A DNA stretch of 20,206 bases from a virus. This document shows positions 2,818-19,571 of this stretch, piece by piece. Under the pieces are notes generated by a model. That model was not told where the DNA came from. It searched no databases and worked only from the letters and a program-made list of their open reading frames with translations. The position numbers and the translations under genes were made by a program. Location of the stretch: the IMG/VR virus record IMGVR_UViG_3300021964_000734, positions 1 to 20,206 of that record. The stretch is one strand, 5' to 3'. The stretch's first letter is position 1. Every line of letters begins with the position of its first letter.

Positions 2818-3303
2818 ATGGCAATACTAGATACTAACGAAATAATGTTTAGAGCTTTCGAACCGAAAGTACAAAACAGATTTTACATGGTAATAGACGG
2901 AATAGAATCGTTCATGGTAAAGAACGTAGCTGCTCCTAACTTTACCGACAATGCAATAAAATTAGACCACATTAATTCATACAGAAAGATTCGTGGAAAA
3001 AGAGAGTGGGGAGAAATGACAATGACATTATATGATCCAATCACTCCTTCAGGAGCACAGCAAGTAATGGAATGGGCTCGTCTATCTTATGAGTCTGTGA
3101 CAGGTAGAGCTGGTTATTCTGACTTCTATAAAAAAGATATAACCTTAAACCTTTTAGGACCTGTAGGAGACATAGTTTCTGAATGGATAATTAAAGGAGC
3201 TTTCATTACCAACTTTAATCAAGGATCATTTGATTGGGCTACTGATGAAACTGCAGAACTTGCAATTACTGTGAATATGGATTATTGCATTTTAAATTAT
3301 TAA
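2818..3303 (+). CDS. gp19: Tail tube protein (T4 gp19 family)
   Basis: A 161-residue protein, essentially the length of T4 gp19 (163), that polymerises into the inner tail tube through which DNA passes. Typical features are an N-terminal FEPKVQNRFYMVIDGIESF strand pair, a VKNVAAPNF segment, the central HINSYRKIRGKREWGEMTMTLYDP and a C-terminal WIIKGAFITNFNQGSFDW strand that pairs neighbouring subunits. It lies immediately after the sheath gene and is followed by a strong terminator, so sheath and tube form an isolated, probably highly expressed unit. Confidence 0.97.
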   Translation: MAILDTNEIMFRAFEPKVQNRFYMVIDGIESFMVKNVAAPNFTDNAIKLDHINSYRKIRGKREWGEMTMTLYDPITPSGAQQVMEWARLSYESVTGRAGYSDFYKKDITLNLLGPVGDIVSEWIIKGAFITNFNQGSFDWATDETAELAITVNMDYCILNY

Positions 3304-3324: not shown

Positions 3325-3351
3325 AAGACCCACCTTATTGGTGGGTTTTTT
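3325..3351 (+). terminator. Intrinsic terminator after the tail tube gene
   Basis: A perfect seven-pair stem (ACCCACC at 3328-3334, GGTGGGT at 3340-3346) encloses a five-base loop (TTATT) and runs into a T6 tract at 3346-3351. A-T and G-T pairs can extend the stem to about 3325. It starts 22 bases after the tube stop codon and is by far the most GC-rich hairpin seen between genes here. It separates sheath and tube from the next transcription unit, which has its own promoter-like motif at 3378. Confidence 0.9.
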
Positions 3352-3412: not shown

Positions 3413-4162
3413 ATGGATTCAAATTTTAAAGTTCCTACTGAAACAGTAGAACTTCCATCAAAAGGATTACTCTATCCTGTTGATTCTCCTCTTTCTAGCG
3501 GTAAAGTAGAAATGAAGTATATGACTGCTAAAGAAGAAGATATTTTATCTAATATTAACTTTATCCGAAAAGGTACTGCTATAGATAAACTTATGCAATC
3601 TCTTTTAGTTGATAAAAAAATAGATTATAAACAGTTATTGGTTGGAGATAAAAATGCAATTATGGTTGCAGCTAGAATTTTATCTTACGGACAAGAGTAT
3701 ACCTTTACTTTTGACGATCAACAGTATACAGTAGATTTATCTAAAGCTAATAATAGTGAGTTAGACGAAAAGTTAATTAAAGATGGAAAAAATGAATTTC
3801 CATTTACTTTTTCTAGAAGCGGAAACGAAATTACTTTTAAATTTCTTACTCACGGAGACGAAGTAAATATAGAAAAAGAAGTAGAAGGTAGAAAAAAAAT
3901 TAATAAAGATAGCAATACTGCTGGGTCAACTAGATTAAAGTATCTTATTACTTCCATTAATGGTCAAACTGATTCTAAAACTATTAGAGATTTCGTAGAT
4001 AACTATTTATTAGCATCTGAAGCAAGAGAATTAAGACTTCATTACCAAACTATATGCCCAGATATTGACCTTAAATTTAACGTCGAAAATGACGACGGCA
4101 GTGAGGAGGCTGTCGATGTACCTGTAGGGATAAACTTTTTTTGGCCTGACGTCCGAATATAG
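3413..4162 (+). CDS. gp26: gp26/PF12322-type baseplate hub or tail assembly chaperone protein
   Basis: A 249-residue protein. The N-terminal pattern (PTETVELPSKGLLYP, then VEMKYMTAKEEDILSN) matches the T4 gp26-type family (Pfam T4_baseplate, PF12322), which acts in baseplate hub or tail assembly. The middle is highly charged (THGDEVNIEKEVEGRKK at about 146-162) and probably helical. The C-terminus ends with NFFWPDVRI. The gene lies directly before the tape measure gene, the slot that tail assembly chaperones occupy in most long-tailed phages. The last nine codons overlap, in a different frame, a second open frame that has no start codon (see 4134-4388), so a fraction of ribosomes probably makes a longer fusion. 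Family assignment is from pattern recall, not a search. Confidence 0.8.
   Translation: MDSNFKVPTETVELPSKGLLYPVDSPLSSGKVEMKYMTAKEEDILSNINFIRKGTAIDKLMQSLLVDKKIDYKQLLVGDKNAIMVAARILSYGQEYTFTFDDQQYTVDLSKANNSELDEKLIKDGKNEFPFTFSRSGNEITFKFLTHGDEVNIEKEVEGRKKINKDSNTAGSTRLKYLITSINGQTDSKTIRDFVDNYLLASEARELRLHYQTICPDIDLKFNVENDDGSEEAVDVPVGINFFWPDVRI
4134..4160 (+). other. Probable programmed frameshift window (T7 run) between two tail assembly frames
   Basis: The upstream frame ends at TAG 4160-4162. The downstream frame is blocked by TAA at 4131-4133 and opens at 4134, so the crossover must occur within these 27 bases. They contain seven consecutive T at 4136-4142, read as AAC TTT TTT TGG in the upstream frame. 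A +1 step (or a -2 slip) after the two Phe codons gives Asn-Phe-Phe-Gly-Leu-Thr and joins the frames. A one-base homopolymer error in the sequence would look the same, so raw reads or related phages should decide. Confidence 0.55.
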
Positions 4163-4388
4163 AGCTAATCTTTTTAAACAAATACATCAAATAGTTTTTC
4201 ACGGTAACGGCGGATTTGATTACCAGACGGTTTATAATATGCCTATCTGGTTGAGAAGATATTCATACCATGAAATATATGAATATCATCAAGAACAAAG
4301 TAAAAAAAGTGAGAGTAAAACTACAATAGGTGATAAAGTAATGGGCCCAGCCATTAAACCTGACTATACTACTAAGGCTTCTAAATAA
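4134..4388 (+). CDS. Downstream frame of the gp26-like gene, probably expressed by frameshift (gene 51 position)
   Basis: An open frame of 84 residues from 4134 to TAA 4386-4388. It has no ATG, GTG or TTG until ATG 4239, which falls inside what looks like its most conserved part. The sequence GLTSEYRANLF, then HGNGGFDY and VYNMPIWLRRYSYHEIYEYH reads as a compact folded domain followed by a polar Lys/Ser tail. It fills the 265 bases between the gp26-like gene and the tape measure gene that otherwise lack a gene. In T4, genes 26 and 51 are adjacent here, but this product is much shorter than T4 gp51, so homology is not claimed. The likely product is a fusion of about 324 residues: 243 from the upstream frame plus 81 from this one. 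An independent short protein from 4239 (49 residues) is less likely. Confidence 0.65.
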   Translation, partial: TFFGLTSEYRANLFKQIHQIVFHGNGGFDYQTVYNMPIWLRRYSYHEIYEYHQEQSKKSESKTTIGDKVMGPAIKPDYTTKASK

Positions 4389-4404
4389 TTATAGGAGCCT
4401 TTAC

Positions 4405-4427: not shown

Positions 4428-7193
4428 ATGGCAACGGATCCAGCAAACGATATTAAACTCCAAAAGGAAAGAGCAGCGCAGTTAAATAAAATTAACATGC
4501 TCGGCCAAGAGTTTAATAGTATCATGAAAGATGCTTCTATTAATATGAAGCAACAGCTCAAAGATGCTGGAGCAACTACAGCTGAAATTCAAGATATGAA
4601 TAAAGGATTTGGGACGTTTAATACGCTTGCCAGATCAGCAGCTAAATTATCTAAAGCCGATTTATCAAATAGAAGAACTAGAAACAAACTTCAAAGTCAA
4701 GCTAATAAAGCAGCTGATGAAGCAGTACAGATAGCAGCTAAAATACAAAAATATGCAGATACTGCTAAAAAATTAGAAGATAAAGCTGCTGCTGCATCAG
4801 GAGAGAAAAAAGCTGCATTAGAAGCTCAAGCTAAAAAAAATAGAGAATTAGTTACCTCTGGGCAAAGACAGTTAGATATTGCGGATGACTTGCAGAAACA
4901 GATGCAAGGAATGCTTGATCTTTCCACTAAGATTACAAAAGCAGGTAGATTCTTTTCTTTCTTTTCAGACTTAGTCGGGGACGTTCCTGTGCTCGGCACT
5001 GTATTTAATAACTTAACTAAAGCAGCTGAATTATTTGACTCTTCAATGGCTGCTGGAGAAAGTACAATAAAAGCTACTTTAAGAGGATTAGGAGAATTTG
5101 TTAAATTAGGAGCCAAAGCTCTTGCTGCATTTGCTGTATCTTCTGCTATTAAAGGTATGAACATACTAGATCAGGCTGTAGTCTCGATTAACAGAAATCT
5201 AGTAATGGCAGGTAAATCTGCTTCTATTTCACTAGGTAATATTAGAGCAGCTGCTGCAAGAACTGGTATGACTTTAGAAAAGTTATTACCTATTAATCAA
5301 GCTTTAAATGAAACATTCGGTACTTCTGCAGTATTTTCAAAAGATACTTTAACTGCTCAATCATTACTTGTAAATAAATTAGGATTATCAGCTGAAGAAG
5401 GAGCTAAACTTTTTAAAGAAACTGCAGGTTCTAAAGAAAATGTAGGAGAGTTTGTAAGAAGTGCAGCTGATCTAGTTACTAATTTTAATAAAACTAACGA
5501 TTCAGTTATTAGTATTAAAACTATACTCCAAGACGTTAGTCATGCTTCTGCTACTACTTCAATTAATACTGCTAAATTTCCAGGAGGAATCCGAACCGCT
5601 GCTTTAGAAGCTAGAAGATTAGGTACTTCTTTAGAAAAAACTAACAGTTTAATGGAAGGATTCTTAGATTTTGAATCTTCTATTCAAGCTGAAATGGATG
5701 CTGAATTATTTACAGGTAGGCAACTTAATTTAGAAAGAGTTAGAGCAGCAGCTTTATCTGGCGATCAAGCAGAACTTGCTAAACAAATTAGATTAGAAGC
5801 TGGTTCCTTTTCCGACTTTCAAAATCTTAATCTATTACAGCAACAAAAATTAGCTGCCGCTTTCAACATGTCTGCTGATGATTTAGGTACTATGCTTAAG
5901 AATCAAAAAGCAATGAAGGAAGCATCTAAAGAAAATGCTAAAGAAGGAGGTGAACAAGCAAAATCTGGAGAAGAACTTATTAATAAATTACAGAGTCAAG
6001 TAACGCTAGGAGAAGGCTTTGCATCAGCTATGGAACGAATCCAGCTAGCGTTTGGAAATATAATCACTAAATTTGCTCCTGAAATAATAAATTTTCTTTC
6101 TTTTGCTGCTAGCAAAACCGAACAAATGGTAGGTTATCTTTCATCAGAAGCAGGTCAAGCGAGTTTAGAAAAAATAAAAAGCGGCATACAGTCGGTAGGT
6201 ACGTTTCTAAAGGATGATGTAATTCCTGCATTGGAAAAAACTTTTAAATGGTTAGGAGAAAATACTATGGGTGCTGAAAACTGGAAAATAGTTTTATCAG
6301 CCATTGCAGGTTTTAAATTTTTAGGACTTATATCAGGATTAAGTACTATATTCAAAACAGTAAAAAGTATAGGAAATCTTTTTGGGCTTAAAAGCGCTAT
6401 TGGTCAAGCATTTACAAAAGATGGACTATTTGGTAGCGGTGGTAGAATAGCTCAAGCATTTAAACCAGGCGGTACTATTATGTCAGGAATTAGCAATTTT
6501 TCTAAAACTATCGGTAGTACGTTTAAAGGCTTACCAGGCATGGATAAATTAGGTGGTATGTTCTCTGGTGCCAAAAATTTTGTTAGTGAAGGATTCAAGA
6601 AATTAAATCCTATGGAAGCCATTAAAACAGCATTAGGAAAAGCAGGTGGAATAGGAAAAGTACTTGGTAAAATAGCTAAGTTTCCATTACTAGCTACTGC
6701 TTTAGAAGGGGCTTTTGCATATAATGATATACAAGGTCTTTTAAACTCAGGATTAACTGGAAAAGAACTAGATGCTGCTATAGGAGAAAGAGCATACGGT
6801 GCTATAGGAACAGTTTTAGGTTCATTAGGAGGATCAGCATTAGGATCTATCTTTCCAGGAGCAGGTACTATGATAGGAGGAATATTAGGAGCAATGGGAG
6901 GTCCAAGTGTAGCGAGAGGTATAGCGTCCATGGCTGACCCTGATTACTCAAAATTTGGTGGTGTAGTATCTGAGTTACCATTTTTTAAGGATGGAATTGA
7001 AGTAGAAGATTTTGTTATTAAACCTATGGCTGCCGATACAATCACTATGGCAGGTGGTACTAAACTTGGAGGAAACGTAGAATCATTATTAGAAGAACTT
7101 ATTTCCTTAACAAAAGAAGGTAAAATAATTAAAATGGATACTGCTACTGTTGGAAGAAGCTTACAGCTTAATGCTAGTAAGATGAGTTATTAA
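4428..7193 (+). CDS. Tail tape measure protein
   Basis: A 921-residue protein and the longest gene in the window. Residues about 5-170 are Ala/Lys/Glu-rich and probably a long coiled coil. Residues 280-500 hold a region typical of T4-like tape measures: NETFGTSAVFSKDTLTA near 294, then ELFTGRQLNLERVRAAALSG at 426-445. Several hydrophobic or glycine-rich stretches follow (about 620-645, 650-760 and the Gly-rich 790-832). The C-terminal segment (FFKDGIEVEDFVIKP, ending MDTATVGRSLQLN) is also typical. The protein sets tail length and is threaded into the tube during assembly. At roughly 0.15 nm per residue, a general rule, this would give a tail near 140 nm. Position after the chaperone-type genes supports the call. 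Confidence 0.93.
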   Translation: MATDPANDIKLQKERAAQLNKINMLGQEFNSIMKDASINMKQQLKDAGATTAEIQDMNKGFGTFNTLARSAAKLSKADLSNRRTRNKLQSQANKAADEAVQIAAKIQKYADTAKKLEDKAAAASGEKKAALEAQAKKNRELVTSGQRQLDIADDLQKQMQGMLDLSTKITKAGRFFSFFSDLVGDVPVLGTVFNNLTKAAELFDSSMAAGESTIKATLRGLGEFVKLGAKALAAFAVSSAIKGMNILDQAVVSINRNLVMAGKSASISLGNIRAAAARTGMTLEKLLPINQALNETFGTSAVFSKDTLTAQSLLVNKLGLSAEEGAKLFKETAGSKENVGEFVRSAADLVTNFNKTNDSVISIKTILQDVSHASATTSINTAKFPGGIRTAALEARRLGTSLEKTNSLMEGFLDFESSIQAEMDAELFTGRQLNLERVRAAALSGDQAELAKQIRLEAGSFSDFQNLNLLQQQKLAAAFNMSADDLGTMLKNQKAMKEASKENAKEGGEQAKSGEELINKLQSQVTLGEGFASAMERIQLAFGNIITKFAPEIINFLSFAASKTEQMVGYLSSEAGQASLEKIKSGIQSVGTFLKDDVIPALEKTFKWLGENTMGAENWKIVLSAIAGFKFLGLISGLSTIFKTVKSIGNLFGLKSAIGQAFTKDGLFGSGGRIAQAFKPGGTIMSGISNFSKTIGSTFKGLPGMDKLGGMFSGAKNFVSEGFKKLNPMEAIKTALGKAGGIGKVLGKIAKFPLLATALEGAFAYNDIQGLLNSGLTGKELDAAIGERAYGAIGTVLGSLGGSALGSIFPGAGTMIGGILGAMGGPSVARGIASMADPDYSKFGGVVSELPFFKDGIEVEDFVIKPMAADTITMAGGTKLGGNVESLLEELISLTKEGKIIKMDTATVGRSLQLNASKMSY

Positions 7194-13180: not shown

Positions 13181-14506
13181 GTGTTTTATATAGTAGAGCA
13201 AGAAAGCAAACTTGAAAGTTTACAGCGATTAGCAAAAGTAGGTCTGTATGTTGATGTTATTTCGTCTAACGATTTTTACCATCCTAAACTTACTTCAACT
13301 GTTGCTGTTTACATTAGACCAATAAAGTCTAAGCATGGATACATAATCCCAATCAGACATGACGAAGGATTCAATGTTGATAAAGAGCGTGTCTACCGTA
13401 TCCTTCTTAATACTGGTAAACTATATACAAGGAATAAGAAAGAACTTCTCTATCACTTTAACTTACAGTCTGCCATAGATCTATCGTTACTCTACTCTAT
13501 GGTGAAATATGATAGACTTGATTACAGTAAGGAAATTAATACCCTTAATTATTTCTACAACAAATATAAAGATATACCTAATATAAACCAATTAATACCT
13601 ATTTCAAAACTTTATGAGTCTTGTGATAAAGTTTACAATCAAATTAAAGAAATTATTGATTATAAAATTCCTTCTAGTTTTGACTTTTATAACAAAACTG
13701 CAACTAACGTTTTTTTCTTATTAGAACAGTCAGGTTTAGGAATTCATTACGAAGCTTTTAATAAAATGTTTAATCCAAGAAATCCTCTGTATAACACAGT
13801 CGATAATATAGTACTAACTTCATACAACTTATACAATGTTACATCCAGACCTACTAATGCTTTTAATAGCGTTAATTTCGCTGCAATACCAAAATCTCAA
13901 GAACATCGAAAGTGTTTCAAACCTCAAAACGACTACTTTGTTGAGTTTGATTTTGACGGTTATCACCTTCGTTTACTTTGCGATGAGATTAATTATGCGT
14001 TGACTGACGAATCTGCCCATAAACAACTTGCAAGACAGTATTTCAATAAGTCTGATATAAATGAAGACGAATATCAACAAGCAAAACAAATTAACTTTCA
14101 TGCAATTTATGGAAAAATACCCGAAAAGTGGGCTCACCTTGAAATCTTTACAAGAATTGATGATTATATCAAAAGCTTATGGGAACGATACGAGGAGGAC
14201 GGAGAAGTCTCAGCACCAATTAGTGGAAAACCTTTTACGAACAACTTAAAAGACATGAATCCTCAAAAATTAATGAATTATATCATGCAATCGTTAGAGA
14301 CTTCAAGAAATATTCTTATATTAAAGAATGTTCTAAGGTATTTACAGAATAAAAAGACTAACGTAGTTTTATATACTTACGATGCATTTTTATTTGACTT
14401 TAGTAAAGAGGATGGTAAAGAAACATTAGAAGATATTAAAAAGATCCTAGAGGAAGGCACAAAATACCCAGTAAAATTTAAATACTCAAAAGATCTTTGT
14501 TTATAA
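13181..14506 (+). CDS. Compact, divergent family-A DNA polymerase
   Basis: A 441-residue protein with a GTG start, the first in-frame start after the promoter-like motif. The family-A order is visible. SRPTNAFNSVNFAAIPKS (222-239) precedes motif A, FDFDGYHLR (256-264), with the metal-binding Asp257. Motif B is AKQINFHAIYG (301-311), with Lys302, Phe306 and Tyr310. MQ at 369-370 corresponds to the conserved O-helix-partner glutamine. Motif C is YTYDAFLFDF (398-407), with Asp401. Compared with E. coli Pol I, Glu710 is His262, Arg754 is Tyr298, His881 is Tyr400 and Glu883 is Ala402. The N-terminal 120 residues resemble a 3'-5' exonuclease fold but show DVI where DxE is expected. The likely role is phage DNA synthesis or repair. 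The residue mapping is a hand alignment. Confidence 0.8.
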   Translation: MFYIVEQESKLESLQRLAKVGLYVDVISSNDFYHPKLTSTVAVYIRPIKSKHGYIIPIRHDEGFNVDKERVYRILLNTGKLYTRNKKELLYHFNLQSAIDLSLLYSMVKYDRLDYSKEINTLNYFYNKYKDIPNINQLIPISKLYESCDKVYNQIKEIIDYKIPSSFDFYNKTATNVFFLLEQSGLGIHYEAFNKMFNPRNPLYNTVDNIVLTSYNLYNVTSRPTNAFNSVNFAAIPKSQEHRKCFKPQNDYFVEFDFDGYHLRLLCDEINYALTDESAHKQLARQYFNKSDINEDEYQQAKQINFHAIYGKIPEKWAHLEIFTRIDDYIKSLWERYEEDGEVSAPISGKPFTNNLKDMNPQKLMNYIMQSLETSRNILILKNVLRYLQNKKTNVVLYTYDAFLFDFSKEDGKETLEDIKKILEEGTKYPVKFKYSKDLCL

Positions 14507-15832: not shown

Positions 15833-16902
15833 TGGCAAAGAAAAAAGAAACTCAAGAAAAAGCAGCCGCTGCAGTACGTAAGTCGTTTAATTTAGGTAAT
15901 TTTAAGAAGAAAAAAGGCTTCTCTAATGCTTCTGTGAAGTTTAAAGAGCAAGGATGGATTCCTTTATCTAAAGCTTTTCAAGACATTACTTCCCTTCCCG
16001 GTATTCCTACCGGACATATCACTCTCTTGCGTGGACATAGTGATACGGGCAAAACAACTGCCTTAATAGAAGCAGCAGTCAATGCACAAAAGATGGGTAT
16101 ATTACCTGTTTTTATTGTAACTGAGATGAAATGGTCTTGGGAACATGCTAAAGAGATGGGACTTGAGTTTGAGGAAGTAAAAGACGAAAATGGTACTGTT
16201 ATTGATTATGAAGGTCATTTCTTATATGCTGACAGAGGTCAACTCAATACTATTGAAGAAGTAGCAGTTTATATTGCCGATCTTATGGATGAGCAGGCAA
16301 AAGGTAATCTACCCTATGATATGTGCTTCTTCTGGGATAGTATAGGCTCAGTACCATGTGATCTTTCGGTGCGTTCTAATAAGAATAATAACGAATGGAA
16401 CGCAGGAGCTATGTCTACTCAGTTTGGTAATAATCTTAATCAGAAGATCTTATTATCACGTAAAGAGAACTCTCCCTATACTAATACTTTGGTAGCTATC
16501 AATAAGGTTTGGACTATGAAACCAGAATCACCGATGGGTCAACCTAAGTTGCAGAATAAAGGCGGAATGTCGATGTGGTATGATGCAACTCTTGTTATTA
16601 CTTTTGGTAATATTACGAACCCAGGTACATCTAAGATAAAAGCTATCAAAGCAGGTATGCAGGTAGAGTTTGCCAAGCGTACCAACGTTCAGGTAGAAAA
16701 GAACCATATCGGTGGAGTGCAGTCAAGAGGTAGAATTGTAATGACCCCTCATGGTTTTATAGCTGACGATAAAAGGGAAATTGATAAGTATAAAGATGCT
16801 CATAAAGACCACTGGTTAAAGTTAGTAGGTTCAGTAGATTTCGATCTTATAGAAGAAGGAGATCTTGAAGAAACTCCTATTACTCCTAATATATTGGATT
16901 AA
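15832..16902 (+). CDS. uvsX: UvsX/RecA-type recombinase
   Basis: A 356-residue RecA-fold ATPase. A basic N-terminal tail (KSFNLGNFKKKKGF) precedes the core. Walker A is GHSDTGKTT at 68-76; Walker B is MCFFWDSIG at 164-172, with Asp169. TEMKWSWEHAKEMG near 97 and INKVWTMKPESPMGQP near 223 are in the positions of the catalytic glutamate and the DNA-binding L1/L2 region. GGMSMWYDATLVITF and GIVQ-like GGVQSRGRIV follow. The C-terminus is acidic (EEGDLEETPITPNILD). Size and layout match phage UvsX (T4: 391 residues) better than bacterial RecA. It should form filaments on gp32-coated ssDNA and promote strand exchange. Overlaps with both neighbours indicate coupled translation. Confidence 0.94.
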   Translation: MAKKKETQEKAAAAVRKSFNLGNFKKKKGFSNASVKFKEQGWIPLSKAFQDITSLPGIPTGHITLLRGHSDTGKTTALIEAAVNAQKMGILPVFIVTEMKWSWEHAKEMGLEFEEVKDENGTVIDYEGHFLYADRGQLNTIEEVAVYIADLMDEQAKGNLPYDMCFFWDSIGSVPCDLSVRSNKNNNEWNAGAMSTQFGNNLNQKILLSRKENSPYTNTLVAINKVWTMKPESPMGQPKLQNKGGMSMWYDATLVITFGNITNPGTSKIKAIKAGMQVEFAKRTNVQVEKNHIGGVQSRGRIVMTPHGFIADDKREIDKYKDAHKDHWLKLVGSVDFDLIEEGDLEETPITPNILD

Positions 16903-17405
16903 TGTACACTAAGCTCCAAATGGTAGATTCATCTACTATATTTGATATTTTACTATCAGAACATAATTGGAGACAAAGTGAAACTTTAAACCGTTCCTCG
17001 GGTAAGGTTATTGTTAATAAATCTGCTAGAAGTAGTCAACAGTATAACCTTAATCTACACCCTGAGTTATTTAAACAGATACAGGAAAGCATTCAGGATA
17101 TTACATCTTTACCTATACGCACTTTGCTTCTTTTAAAGTACGAAGTAGGCGATCATTTTGCATATCATTATGATACTAATGGGCGGAGAAAACATACCAT
17201 AAGTATTGGGGTAAACCCCCAAGATTATACCGGTGGTGAGTTAGTGTTAAGACAGAATAAAACTGAACACTCTTTTAGACTTAAAACCGGTGAAGGTATA
17301 ATTTTTGATTCTGCCATAGAACACAAAGTAAATAAAGTCTTATCTGGAGTTAGGTATAGTATCATTGGATGGACTGACCAAGGTCATATAAAAGATAAAA
17401 TATAA
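16902..17405 (+). CDS. 2-oxoglutarate/Fe(II)-dependent oxygenase (prolyl-4-hydroxylase-like)
   Basis: A 167-residue double-stranded beta-helix enzyme. The iron-binding facial triad is visible as His89 and Asp91 in FAYHYDTNG and His141 in SAIEHKVNKV. Arg151 in GVRYSIIGW is the expected 2-oxoglutarate carboxylate anchor. TLLLLKYEVGDHFAYHYD and YTGGELVLRQN are typical of the P4Hc/PiuC-like group. The reaction would be hydroxylation of a protein, nucleobase or small molecule with decarboxylation of 2-oxoglutarate; the substrate is not predictable. Such enzymes are common in marine T4-like phages. The gene overlaps uvsX by one base and the exonuclease gene by one base, so it is made together with DNA-metabolism proteins. 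Confidence 0.9.
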   Translation: MYTKLQMVDSSTIFDILLSEHNWRQSETLNRSSGKVIVNKSARSSQQYNLNLHPELFKQIQESIQDITSLPIRTLLLLKYEVGDHFAYHYDTNGRRKHTISIGVNPQDYTGGELVLRQNKTEHSFRLKTGEGIIFDSAIEHKVNKVLSGVRYSIIGWTDQGHIKDKI

Positions 17406-18418: not shown

Positions 18419-18771
18419 ATTTAAAAGATTTTCTTATTGGAGCTGGCTTATTTTTTATAGCTCAATCATTATCATGGTTTCAAACTAACGGACAGTTTTT
18501 AAATCAATGGGTTAAAGATAATCCTATTATAGTTGCCGGTTTATTTGGTATACCGGTAGGTATGGCATATATTTACGGCACTACTTATGTAGTCCAAGCA
18601 TTTAATGGTCAGTTATGGCCTTCAAGACTAACAGGTTTTGCTACCGGTATTTTTAGTTTTACTATATTGACCTATGCTTTTATGAGAGAAGGTGTAAATA
18701 TTAAAACCGGTACTATTCTAATATTAGCATTTGTTATAGTAATTTTACAAGTTTTTTGGAAATATGATTAA
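18415..18771 (+). CDS. Small integral membrane protein, function unknown
   Basis: A 118-residue protein with about four hydrophobic segments: 5-22 (DFLIGAGLFFIAQSLSWF), about 38-60 (IIVAGLFGIPVGMAYIYG), about 76-92 (GFATGIFSFTILTYAF) and 100-116 (GTILILAFVIVILQVFW). I chose ATG 18415 because it overlaps the exonuclease stop as ATGA, the coupling used throughout this cluster; an upstream in-frame start at 18379 would add 12 polar residues inside the exonuclease gene. It ends with the charged KYD. It could anchor a replication or nucleotide-sugar complex to the membrane or be holin-like, but no lysis gene is nearby. I do not recognise the family. Confidence 0.75.
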   Translation: MNLKDFLIGAGLFFIAQSLSWFQTNGQFLNQWVKDNPIIVAGLFGIPVGMAYIYGTTYVVQAFNGQLWPSRLTGFATGIFSFTILTYAFMREGVNIKTGTILILAFVIVILQVFWKYD

Positions 18772-19177
18772 AGGAGTAATAGCAGGTAACTTCGATGTTA
18801 TACATCCTGGTTACGTAAAGATGTTCAGAGAAATGGGATTATACTGTGATACATTAGTTGTATTACTTCACACTGATCCTTCAATTGAAAGACCTCATAA
18901 ACTAAAACCTATACTTACAGTAGAAGAGCGTAAAGAGATGCTTATGCAAATTAGACCCGTAAAGGATGTAATAAGGTATACATATGAAGAGCAGCTGTAT
19001 GATTTACTTAAATTAGGTGAATTTAATATTAGGTTCATAGGAGAAGATTATATAGGAAAACCTTTCACTGGGGATGACTTAGAAATCCCTGTCCATTATA
19101 TTAAGAGAGATCATGGTTGGTCCACAACACTATACAAAAAATTAATTGCAGAAAGTTATGAACGCAGTAATAGTTAG
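18764..19177 (+). CDS. Cytidylyltransferase-like nucleotidyltransferase (TagD-type)
   Basis: A 137-residue protein of the HxGH nucleotidylyltransferase superfamily, similar in length and layout to glycerol-3-phosphate cytidylyltransferase TagD (129). Motifs: GNFDVIHPGYVKMF (8-21), the usual HxGH position; LTVEERKEMLMQIRPV (51-66); FIGEDYIGKPF (91-101), matching the GDDWxGKF-like loop; and RDHGWSTTLYK (115-125), matching the ISTT-like signature. The second His of HxGH is Tyr17 here, which may lower or redirect activity. The reaction would couple a phosphorylated alcohol or sugar to CTP (or ATP). It overlaps the membrane protein gene by eight bases and the next nucleotidyltransferase by 20 bases. 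Confidence 0.85.
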   Translation: MIKGVIAGNFDVIHPGYVKMFREMGLYCDTLVVLLHTDPSIERPHKLKPILTVEERKEMLMQIRPVKDVIRYTYEEQLYDLLKLGEFNIRFIGEDYIGKPFTGDDLEIPVHYIKRDHGWSTTLYKKLIAESYERSNS

Positions 19178-19571
19178 TGGGTACTTTAACCCACTTCATA
19201 AAGGCCATTTAGAACTTTTTGAAAATGCTAGAGTGCATGGTTCTGAGTTATGGGTAATAATTAATAGTGATTTTCAACGTGAGTTAAAAGGAAGCAAAGC
19301 GTTTATGGATGAAAAAGAACGTTTAAAAATTGTAAGAGCGATTAAAGTAGTGGATAAAGCATTTATCTCAATTGATAGAGATTCAACTCAATGCAAAACT
19401 CTAAGTGCTATCAATAATTTTTTCTCTTACGACTATTATTTATCATTTGCTAATGGTGGCGATCAAACTAATGAATCTATACCAGAAGCAAAAATCTGTA
19501 ATGAATTAGGAATCAAACTTATTGATGGATTAGGAGATAAAATACAGAGTTCTTCTTGGTTATTAAAGTAA
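19158..19571 (+). CDS. Second nucleotidylyltransferase (HKGH motif)
   Basis: A 137-residue protein of the same superfamily as its upstream neighbour, with an intact HxGH: YFNPLHKGHLELFE, His14 and His17. MDEKERLKIVRAIKVVDKAF (50-69) is the typical helix and strand after the nucleotide site. SFANGGDQTNESIPE (96-110) and KIQSSSWLLK (128-137) resemble the GGD and ISSS-type signatures of adenylyl/cytidylyl transferases such as the HldE C-terminal domain. The expected reaction is activation of a sugar or alcohol phosphate with ATP or CTP. The start at ATG 19158 is preferred over an in-frame TTG 12 bases earlier. The two transferases are clearly diverged, not a recent duplication. Confidence 0.85.
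   Translation: MNAVIVSGYFNPLHKGHLELFENARVHGSELWVIINSDFQRELKGSKAFMDEKERLKIVRAIKVVDKAFISIDRDSTQCKTLSAINNFFSYDYYLSFANGGDQTNESIPEAKICNELGIKLIDGLGDKIQSSSWLLK

Follow-up and report, generated by a model that had tools for sequence, protein, structure and literature searches.

Between the tail tube and tape measure genes of a viral genome fragment (IMG/VR record IMGVR_UViG_3300021964_000734, positions 1 to 20,206; this whole stretch of 20,206 nt is called the window here), a reading frame without a start codon at its head overlaps the end of the gene before it. The question raised by this locus is whether the frame is translated and, if so, how ribosomes come to enter it. The original prediction was a programmed frameshift in a tail assembly chaperone (TAC) gene placed between tube and tape measure, and the gene order, the frame offset, the slip site and the selection described below all support it. 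A chaperone gene of the G/GT type is recognized by that position, by a start-less second frame overlapping the end of the first, by a shift-prone conserved sequence in the overlap and by protein-level selection on the second frame. Across tailed phages, TAC genes shift by -1, -2 or +1, with T4 as an apparent exception (Atkins et al. 2016 review, PMC5009743).

At the window locus, the first frame (TAC-N) closes with TAG at 4160-4162, and the second, preceded by TAA at 4131-4133 and open from 4134, closes with TAA at 4386-4388 and has its first ATG, GTG or TTG at 4239 (Table 1). A start-less frame thus overlaps the end of the first one, offset from it by +1 (or -2), and a run of TTTTTTT at 4136-4142 lies inside the overlap. 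Reading through as AAC TTT TTT (T) GGC CTG, a +1 join of both frames gives exactly 324 residues (TAC-NC). The positions given at the outset for the first gene (3413-4162), the T7 run, both TAA codons, the first start and the 324-residue join were all reproduced, as was the existence of the overlap; its length, put at 27 bases, is instead 29 nt when 4134-4162 is counted whole, TAG included, and 26 nt with the TAG left off. The window has a single copy of the 15-mer CTTTYTTTGGCCTGA, against 0 expected from shuffles. A canonical -1 shift was rejected, the offset in the window lineage being +1.

Table 1. Features of the proposed chaperone locus, in positions of the window.
Feature	Position	Strand	Evidence
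Tail tube protein (gp19-like), upstream neighbour	2818..3303	+	PF06841 E=2.3e-7; phrog_4542 E=2.9e-24
Terminator-like hairpin between tail tube and TAC genes	3325..3349	+	
TAC-N, putative gp26/gp51-like tail assembly chaperone, short form, zero frame, 249 aa	3413..4162	+	phrog_150 match
GGAGG (in AGGAGG, 4104-4109)	4105..4109	+	29 nt before P-site codon; conserved at synonymous sites
Start-less +1 frame; TAC-C is the residues from 4143 on (GLTSEYR...), predicted to be fused to TAC-N as TAC-NC	4134..4388	+	dN/dS; gp51-tail profile match
Near-invariant block CTTTTTTTGGCCTGAC	4135..4150	+	column conservation in 64 dereplicated relatives; slip variants in 141
Proposed +1 shift heptamer TTT-TGG-C	4139..4145	+	slip variants in 141 dereplicated sequences
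Terminator-like hairpin over TAC-C end, before tape measure gene	4374..4401	+	
Tape measure protein, downstream neighbour	4428..7193	+	alignment with the tape measure annotated in phage immuto (555 aa, 24% identical, E=1e-25)

The gene lies between tail tube and tape measure, as G/GT-type chaperones do, and the same order of tube, TAC and tape measure is found in Flavobacterium phage immuto and Microcystis phage Mel-JY01. Since terminator-like hairpins flank the gene, the second of them seemingly retained in immuto (AAAGCTTCTAGATAATAGGAGCTTT), TAC may form a transcription unit of its own. The sequence TATTTATA stands on the plus strand at window positions 978, 2797, 3378, 4405 and 7202, each time 20-35 nt ahead of a gene start (tail sheath, tail tube, TAC, tape measure and the gene after these); with this regular placement it is a possible late promoter element, its total count (8 against 5.5 expected) being not above chance.

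Elsewhere in the window we noted a short family A DNA polymerase-like protein (13181-14506, 441 aa, GTG start) in which only the polymerase part was matched (PF00476, E=5.9e-9), a 2OG-Fe(II) oxygenase gene (16902-17405, PF13640) between RecA/UvsX-like and 5'-3' exonuclease genes, and an overlapping cytidylyltransferase-like pair (18764-19177 and 19146-19571, both PF01467), i.e., tandem nucleotidyltransferases of which the second has TTG as its first possible start.

Judged from one window alone, a T7 run could be a homopolymer sequencing or assembly error, or the gene could be broken. A first set was collected by protein homology (80 relatives from an IMG/VR scan, to which a phage collection added immuto, Mel-JY01 and LR756508, an uncultured 484-kb phage), and the +1 offset is present in every locus where both parts could be placed; in all loci with both parts, LR756508 excepted, the junction reads YTT-TGG-CC. 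In a second, wider scan the second frame stands at +1 in 94 of 96. Collection by the YTT-TGG-C motif itself, with near copies removed at a 97% cut, gave 141 dereplicated sequences, and within this motif-defined set 127 sites read TTT-TGG-C and 14 CTT-TGG-C, one of the latter (L215) being without the +1 offset. Other +1 sites are TTT-CTA in LR756508, TTT-TTC-C in a Winogradskyella MAG contig and TTT-CGT-C in Streptococcus phage GXN1, and L220 likewise has a +1 site other than YTT-TGG-C. Relatives free of the T7 run, with CTTTCTTT or TTCTTTT in its place, retain the +1 offset; the sites TTTCTTTGG and TTCTTTTGG contain no long T run, and in some relatives no run at the site exceeds 4 T. An offset that about 140 dereplicated relatives, drawn from many metagenomes, have in common with the isolates immuto and Mel-JY01, together with purifying selection on the second frame (see below), makes an error or a broken gene exceedingly improbable, and the T7-free relatives already refute the error reading, which the original prediction had itself proposed to check.

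As the T7-free sites keep the offset, polymerase slippage on the homopolymer does not explain the pattern either. Transcriptional slippage is possible on T/A runs, but a run of seven bases is short for it, and the arrangement persists in relatives with TTTCTTT or TTCTTTT, so that we regard it as very unlikely.

Column conservation across 64 dereplicated relatives further singles out the site: the block CTTTYTTTGGCCTGAC is nearly invariant with the flanking third positions free, and the variable third position passes from codon position 3 of the zero frame to position 3 of the +1 frame exactly at the slip site. Invariance after the slip is in part expected because of dual coding, the same bases giving W-P-D in one frame and G-L-T in the other. 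The P-site Phe codon, however, is TTT in 127/127, which goes beyond that expectation because at the other Phe positions of these genes TTC is used 15% of the time. The alignment of orthologues, with its constant offset and conserved slip site, hence bears out the T run as the place of slippage and +1 as its direction, and a conserved, shift-prone sequence of the G/GT kind is found in the overlap. In four relatives (L042, L051, L079 and L082) a second CTTTTTTTCCC, resembling the slip site, occurs about 60-70 nt upstream in the same gene.

The same frame would be reached by a -2 slip, at the cost of one extra Phe (NFFF-GLT), and such a -2 shift has been documented for the TAC gene of phage Mu (PMC5009743). 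Nevertheless, sites of the forms TTT-CTT-TGG and TTC-TTT-TGG re-pair worse for -2 than for +1, and each variant encountered (CTTTCTTT, TTCTTTT, TTT-CTA, TTT-TTC-C and TTT-CGT-C) has a P-site codon well able to re-pair one base forward; a -2 step is therefore unlikely, and +1 is the step that we retain.

That the start-less frame codes for protein is plain from the substitution pattern. Over the stretch from the site to the first Met, in 53 sequences, the +1 frame has dN 0.196 and dS 1.70 (dN/dS about 0.12) and contains no stop in any of the 53, whereas the other two frames are interrupted in 47 and in 53 of the 53, respectively, and show no excess of synonymous change. The frame is under purifying selection, and selection at the protein level, as on the second frame of G/GT-type chaperones, is thus present; the protein alignment of the relatives begins with the residue immediately past the slip (GLT..).

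A coding second frame might still belong to a separate protein with an independent start, by a non-standard codon or by reinitiation and perhaps aided by a GGAGG that is conserved upstream of the slip site. About half of the relatives do carry an ATG, GTG or TTG further upstream in the +1 frame, and codons alone thus exclude independent initiation only in the remainder; in two relatives, L209 and L215, TAC-C is a gene of its own with an ATG start. But the second frame offers no ATG, GTG or TTG ahead of codon +10 in 63 of the 141, and it opens just 3 codons before GGC in 17 of the 141. Moreover, the genes here do not use Shine-Dalgarno (SD) initiation, which speaks against a GGAGG-aided start, and an independent start leaves the invariant slip block unexplained; it is on the start-free set and on this block that the case against separate initiation is built. 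A proper start in relatives, named beforehand as an outcome that would tell against the shift, is accordingly found wanting in nearly half of them, with none usable, and does occur in L209 and L215, both without the +1 offset and with a longer N-terminus on TAC-C. We consider a separately started TAC-C quite unlikely, and the +1 join to TAC-N is kept in what follows.

As to the identity of the products, TAC-N matches phrog_150, a family labelled 'baseplate hub' (E=9.1e-11), and so do T4 gp26 and gp51 (E=6.7e-71 and 2.6e-84). By these matches gp26 and gp51 are paralogues and belong to the family of TAC-N, with gp51 the longer at its C-terminus, and the relation to gp26 foreseen for the first frame is borne out by the family common to all three. 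The tail of gp51, together with other T4-like C-terminal pieces, aligns with TAC-C (hhalign E=2.5e-4 in a single comparison, with a shared MP...R motif), and the TAC-C profile also matches the TAC-C domains of phages with -1 shifts. The second frame had been taken for a separate product in the slot of gene 51; it is only a C-terminal domain, and gp51 itself is a gp26 paralogue that carries this domain. Direct hhalign comparison of the first fused profile with the single T4 gp26, gp51 and gp28 sequences gave no match, and the link from TAC-N to gp26/gp51 therefore came via PHROGs and predicted folds.

Modelled separately from TAC-C, TAC-N gave an AF2 model with pLDDT 90.5, which matches the predicted structures of a hub subunit of phage SP-15 and of T4-like hub assembly proteins. 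Sequence searches of solved structures found no relative. Structural matches of TAC-N to solved structures were weak (Foldseek E 0.9); three PDB chains exceeded Z 3.5, among them the top two, YqbN (Z 5.9), which we take to be an XkdN-type tail assembly chaperone, and the HK97 TAC (Z 5.6), a Z below 8 being not decisive. TAC-C alone gave a three-helix model of low confidence (pLDDT 72). Because the fold match is weak, the assignment of the short TAC-N and the long TAC-NC as presumed tail assembly chaperones of T4-like phages is drawn mainly from synteny, family membership and published TAC work.

The gene order, the frames, the conserved site, the selection on the start-less frame and the homology to gp26/gp51 and to other TAC-C domains, all read from sequence, together argue that one gene very probably yields both chaperone forms through a programmed +1 ribosomal shift at TTT-TGG-C; on this footing we infer that ribosomes shift here, that the step is +1 and not -2, how efficient it is, and that the products act as chaperones. 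Most ribosomes would make only TAC-N, terminating at 4160, and a minority would pause at AAC-TTT-TTT-TGG-C, where tRNA-Phe occupies the P site while TGG, the codon for Trp, awaits decoding in the A site. The P-site TTT at 4139-4141 would then re-pair on TTT at 4140-4142, bringing GGC (4143-4145) into the A site (in some relatives CTT would slip onto TTT, as at the RF2 site), and reading would resume with GGC-CTG in the +1 frame to complete TAC-NC. If lambda gpG/gpGT is a guide, the tape measure protein, encoded by the neighbouring gene, may be bound by many TAC-N and few TAC-NC molecules, the TAC-C domain recruiting tail tube subunits and the rate of shifting setting the ratio of the two forms.

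The RF2 (prfB) gene shifts +1 at CUU-UGA-C and Ty1 at CUU-AGG-C. The site for influenza PA-X is UCC-UUU-CGU, i.e., UUU-CGU-C (PMC3498833), the very sequence found in GXN1. The window site, YUU-UGG-C in general form, resembles all of these in a P-site YUU that can re-pair one base forward before a slow A-site codon, but it differs from RF2 in that its A site holds a sense codon (TGG) instead of a stop, the RF2-type SD about 3 nt upstream of the slip site is absent and the GGAGG lies 29 nt upstream; the RF2 shift serves autoregulation, whereas a structural ratio is proposed here. With lambda gpG/gpGT and the wider G-T frameshift (Levin 1993; Xu 2004) the locus has the order of tube, chaperone and tape measure in common, although lambda shifts -1 and the window lineage +1, and the fold likeness of TAC-N to the HK97 TAC is weak. 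Closer in direction, by the description in PMC5009743, is the haloarchaeal virus HSTV-2, a myovirus with a likely +1 TAC shift and an archaeal host.

The GGAGG deserves separate attention. Its Glu codon is GAG in 94 sequences and GAA in 2, against 5-24% GAG in six other conserved Glu columns, a bias which points to selection on the nucleic acid and not on the protein. At 29 nt it is too far away to act as the RF2 and dnaX stimulators do; a small intervening hairpin could shorten this distance, and such a hairpin between GGAGG and the slip site is weakly indicated (pairing excess slight, mean 0.04; mean MFE z -0.94), while consensus folds around the slip site contained no conserved RNA structure. 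No clear SD precedes the listed starts of the window, and 0 of 83 TAC-N starts has one. The missing SD initiation fits Bacteroidota hosts, because their ribosomes sequester the anti-SD (PMC9976891). The MAG matches are to Winogradskyella and Flavobacteriales and the host of immuto is Flavobacterium, and the phage probably infects Flavobacteria-type bacteria (Bacteroidota).

In a survey of the wider group, by phrog_150 search of whole phage records followed by reading of the junctions, we found four routes to the long form. A -1 shift at T TTT TTY occurs in Synechococcus S-PM2 and Syn9, Prochlorococcus P-SSM2, Pelagibacter HTVC008M, Sinorhizobium phiM12, Pseudomonas pf16, Vibrio KVP40 and the contig L199; this site of the Kyanoviridae, HTVC008M, phiM12, pf16 and KVP40 stands against YTT-TGG-C in the window lineage. 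A +1 shift is found in the window lineage, immuto, Mel-JY01, LR756508 and the Winogradskyella and Flavobacteriales MAG contigs and, judged by the start-less frame, in two phages of Gram-positive hosts, Streptococcus GXN1 and Listeria LIS04. Two genes are used by T4 and apparently by Campylobacter CP220; the T4 gp26/gp51 system is like the window's in phrog_150 family, genome slot and short and long forms, but has two paralogous genes in place of one gene with a +1 site. Only a single phrog_150 gene is present in the whole genomes of immuto and Mel-JY01 and in the 20-kb window (an incomplete genome), so the T4-type arrangement was not seen there. In the fourth route the gene is split, with the TAC-C ATG a few bases past the TAC-N stop, in L209 (from 3218 on) and L215 (from 3215 on); neither keeps the +1 offset, and in L215 a ribosome stepping +1 would run into a stop ten codons on. 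The tree groups the +1 rows, with the split pair inside them (100/99 support for the pair), while the -1 phages and T4 lie across a weakly supported root, and the long T4, CP220 and L199 branches are placed uncertainly. On these sequences, the split pair appears to represent a loss of frameshifting that took place in nature, within the +1 clade, and the window lineage appears to shift in the direction opposite to that of most T4-like relatives examined. A bolder, two-part proposal, possible but on balance doubtful, is that in these Bacteroidota phages the GGAGG 29 nt upstream tunes the +1 shift, perhaps brought near by a hairpin and so a stimulator of an undescribed type, and that one homologous Phe-Phe site has flipped between -1 and +1 during T4-like evolution.

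Vladimirov, Gautam and Davidson reportedly identified the TACs of T4-like phages in 2022 (said to be in Virology 566:9), with frameshifting in several groups and with T4 using genes 26 and 51. A passage of PMC12846349 cites these authors (Virology 2022) for -1 signals of poly-T type within the TAC-N genes of T4-like phages. The extension of the frameshift scheme to T4-like tails, offered as new in the original prediction, had thus, by these accounts, already been proposed in 2022, and cyanophages, KVP40, phiM12 and pf16 use a -1 shift. Whatever the 2022 Virology paper covers on +1 shifts aside, the +1 variant of this lineage, its invariant heptamer and its split derivatives are undescribed as far as we have checked.

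The frameshift reading corrects annotations, e.g., in the deposited immuto genome, where all that marks the second frame is a 36-aa hypothetical protein from an internal ATG. It also brings to light YTT-TGG-C, a very clean +1 site. The probable hosts of these phages hide the anti-SD, a setting in which recoding signals have been little studied. More broadly, the T4-like phages offer a natural series in which the same gene would give the same two products via -1 shift, +1 shift, duplication or splitting, and which lets one ask how a recoding signal reverses its direction and how it is lost.
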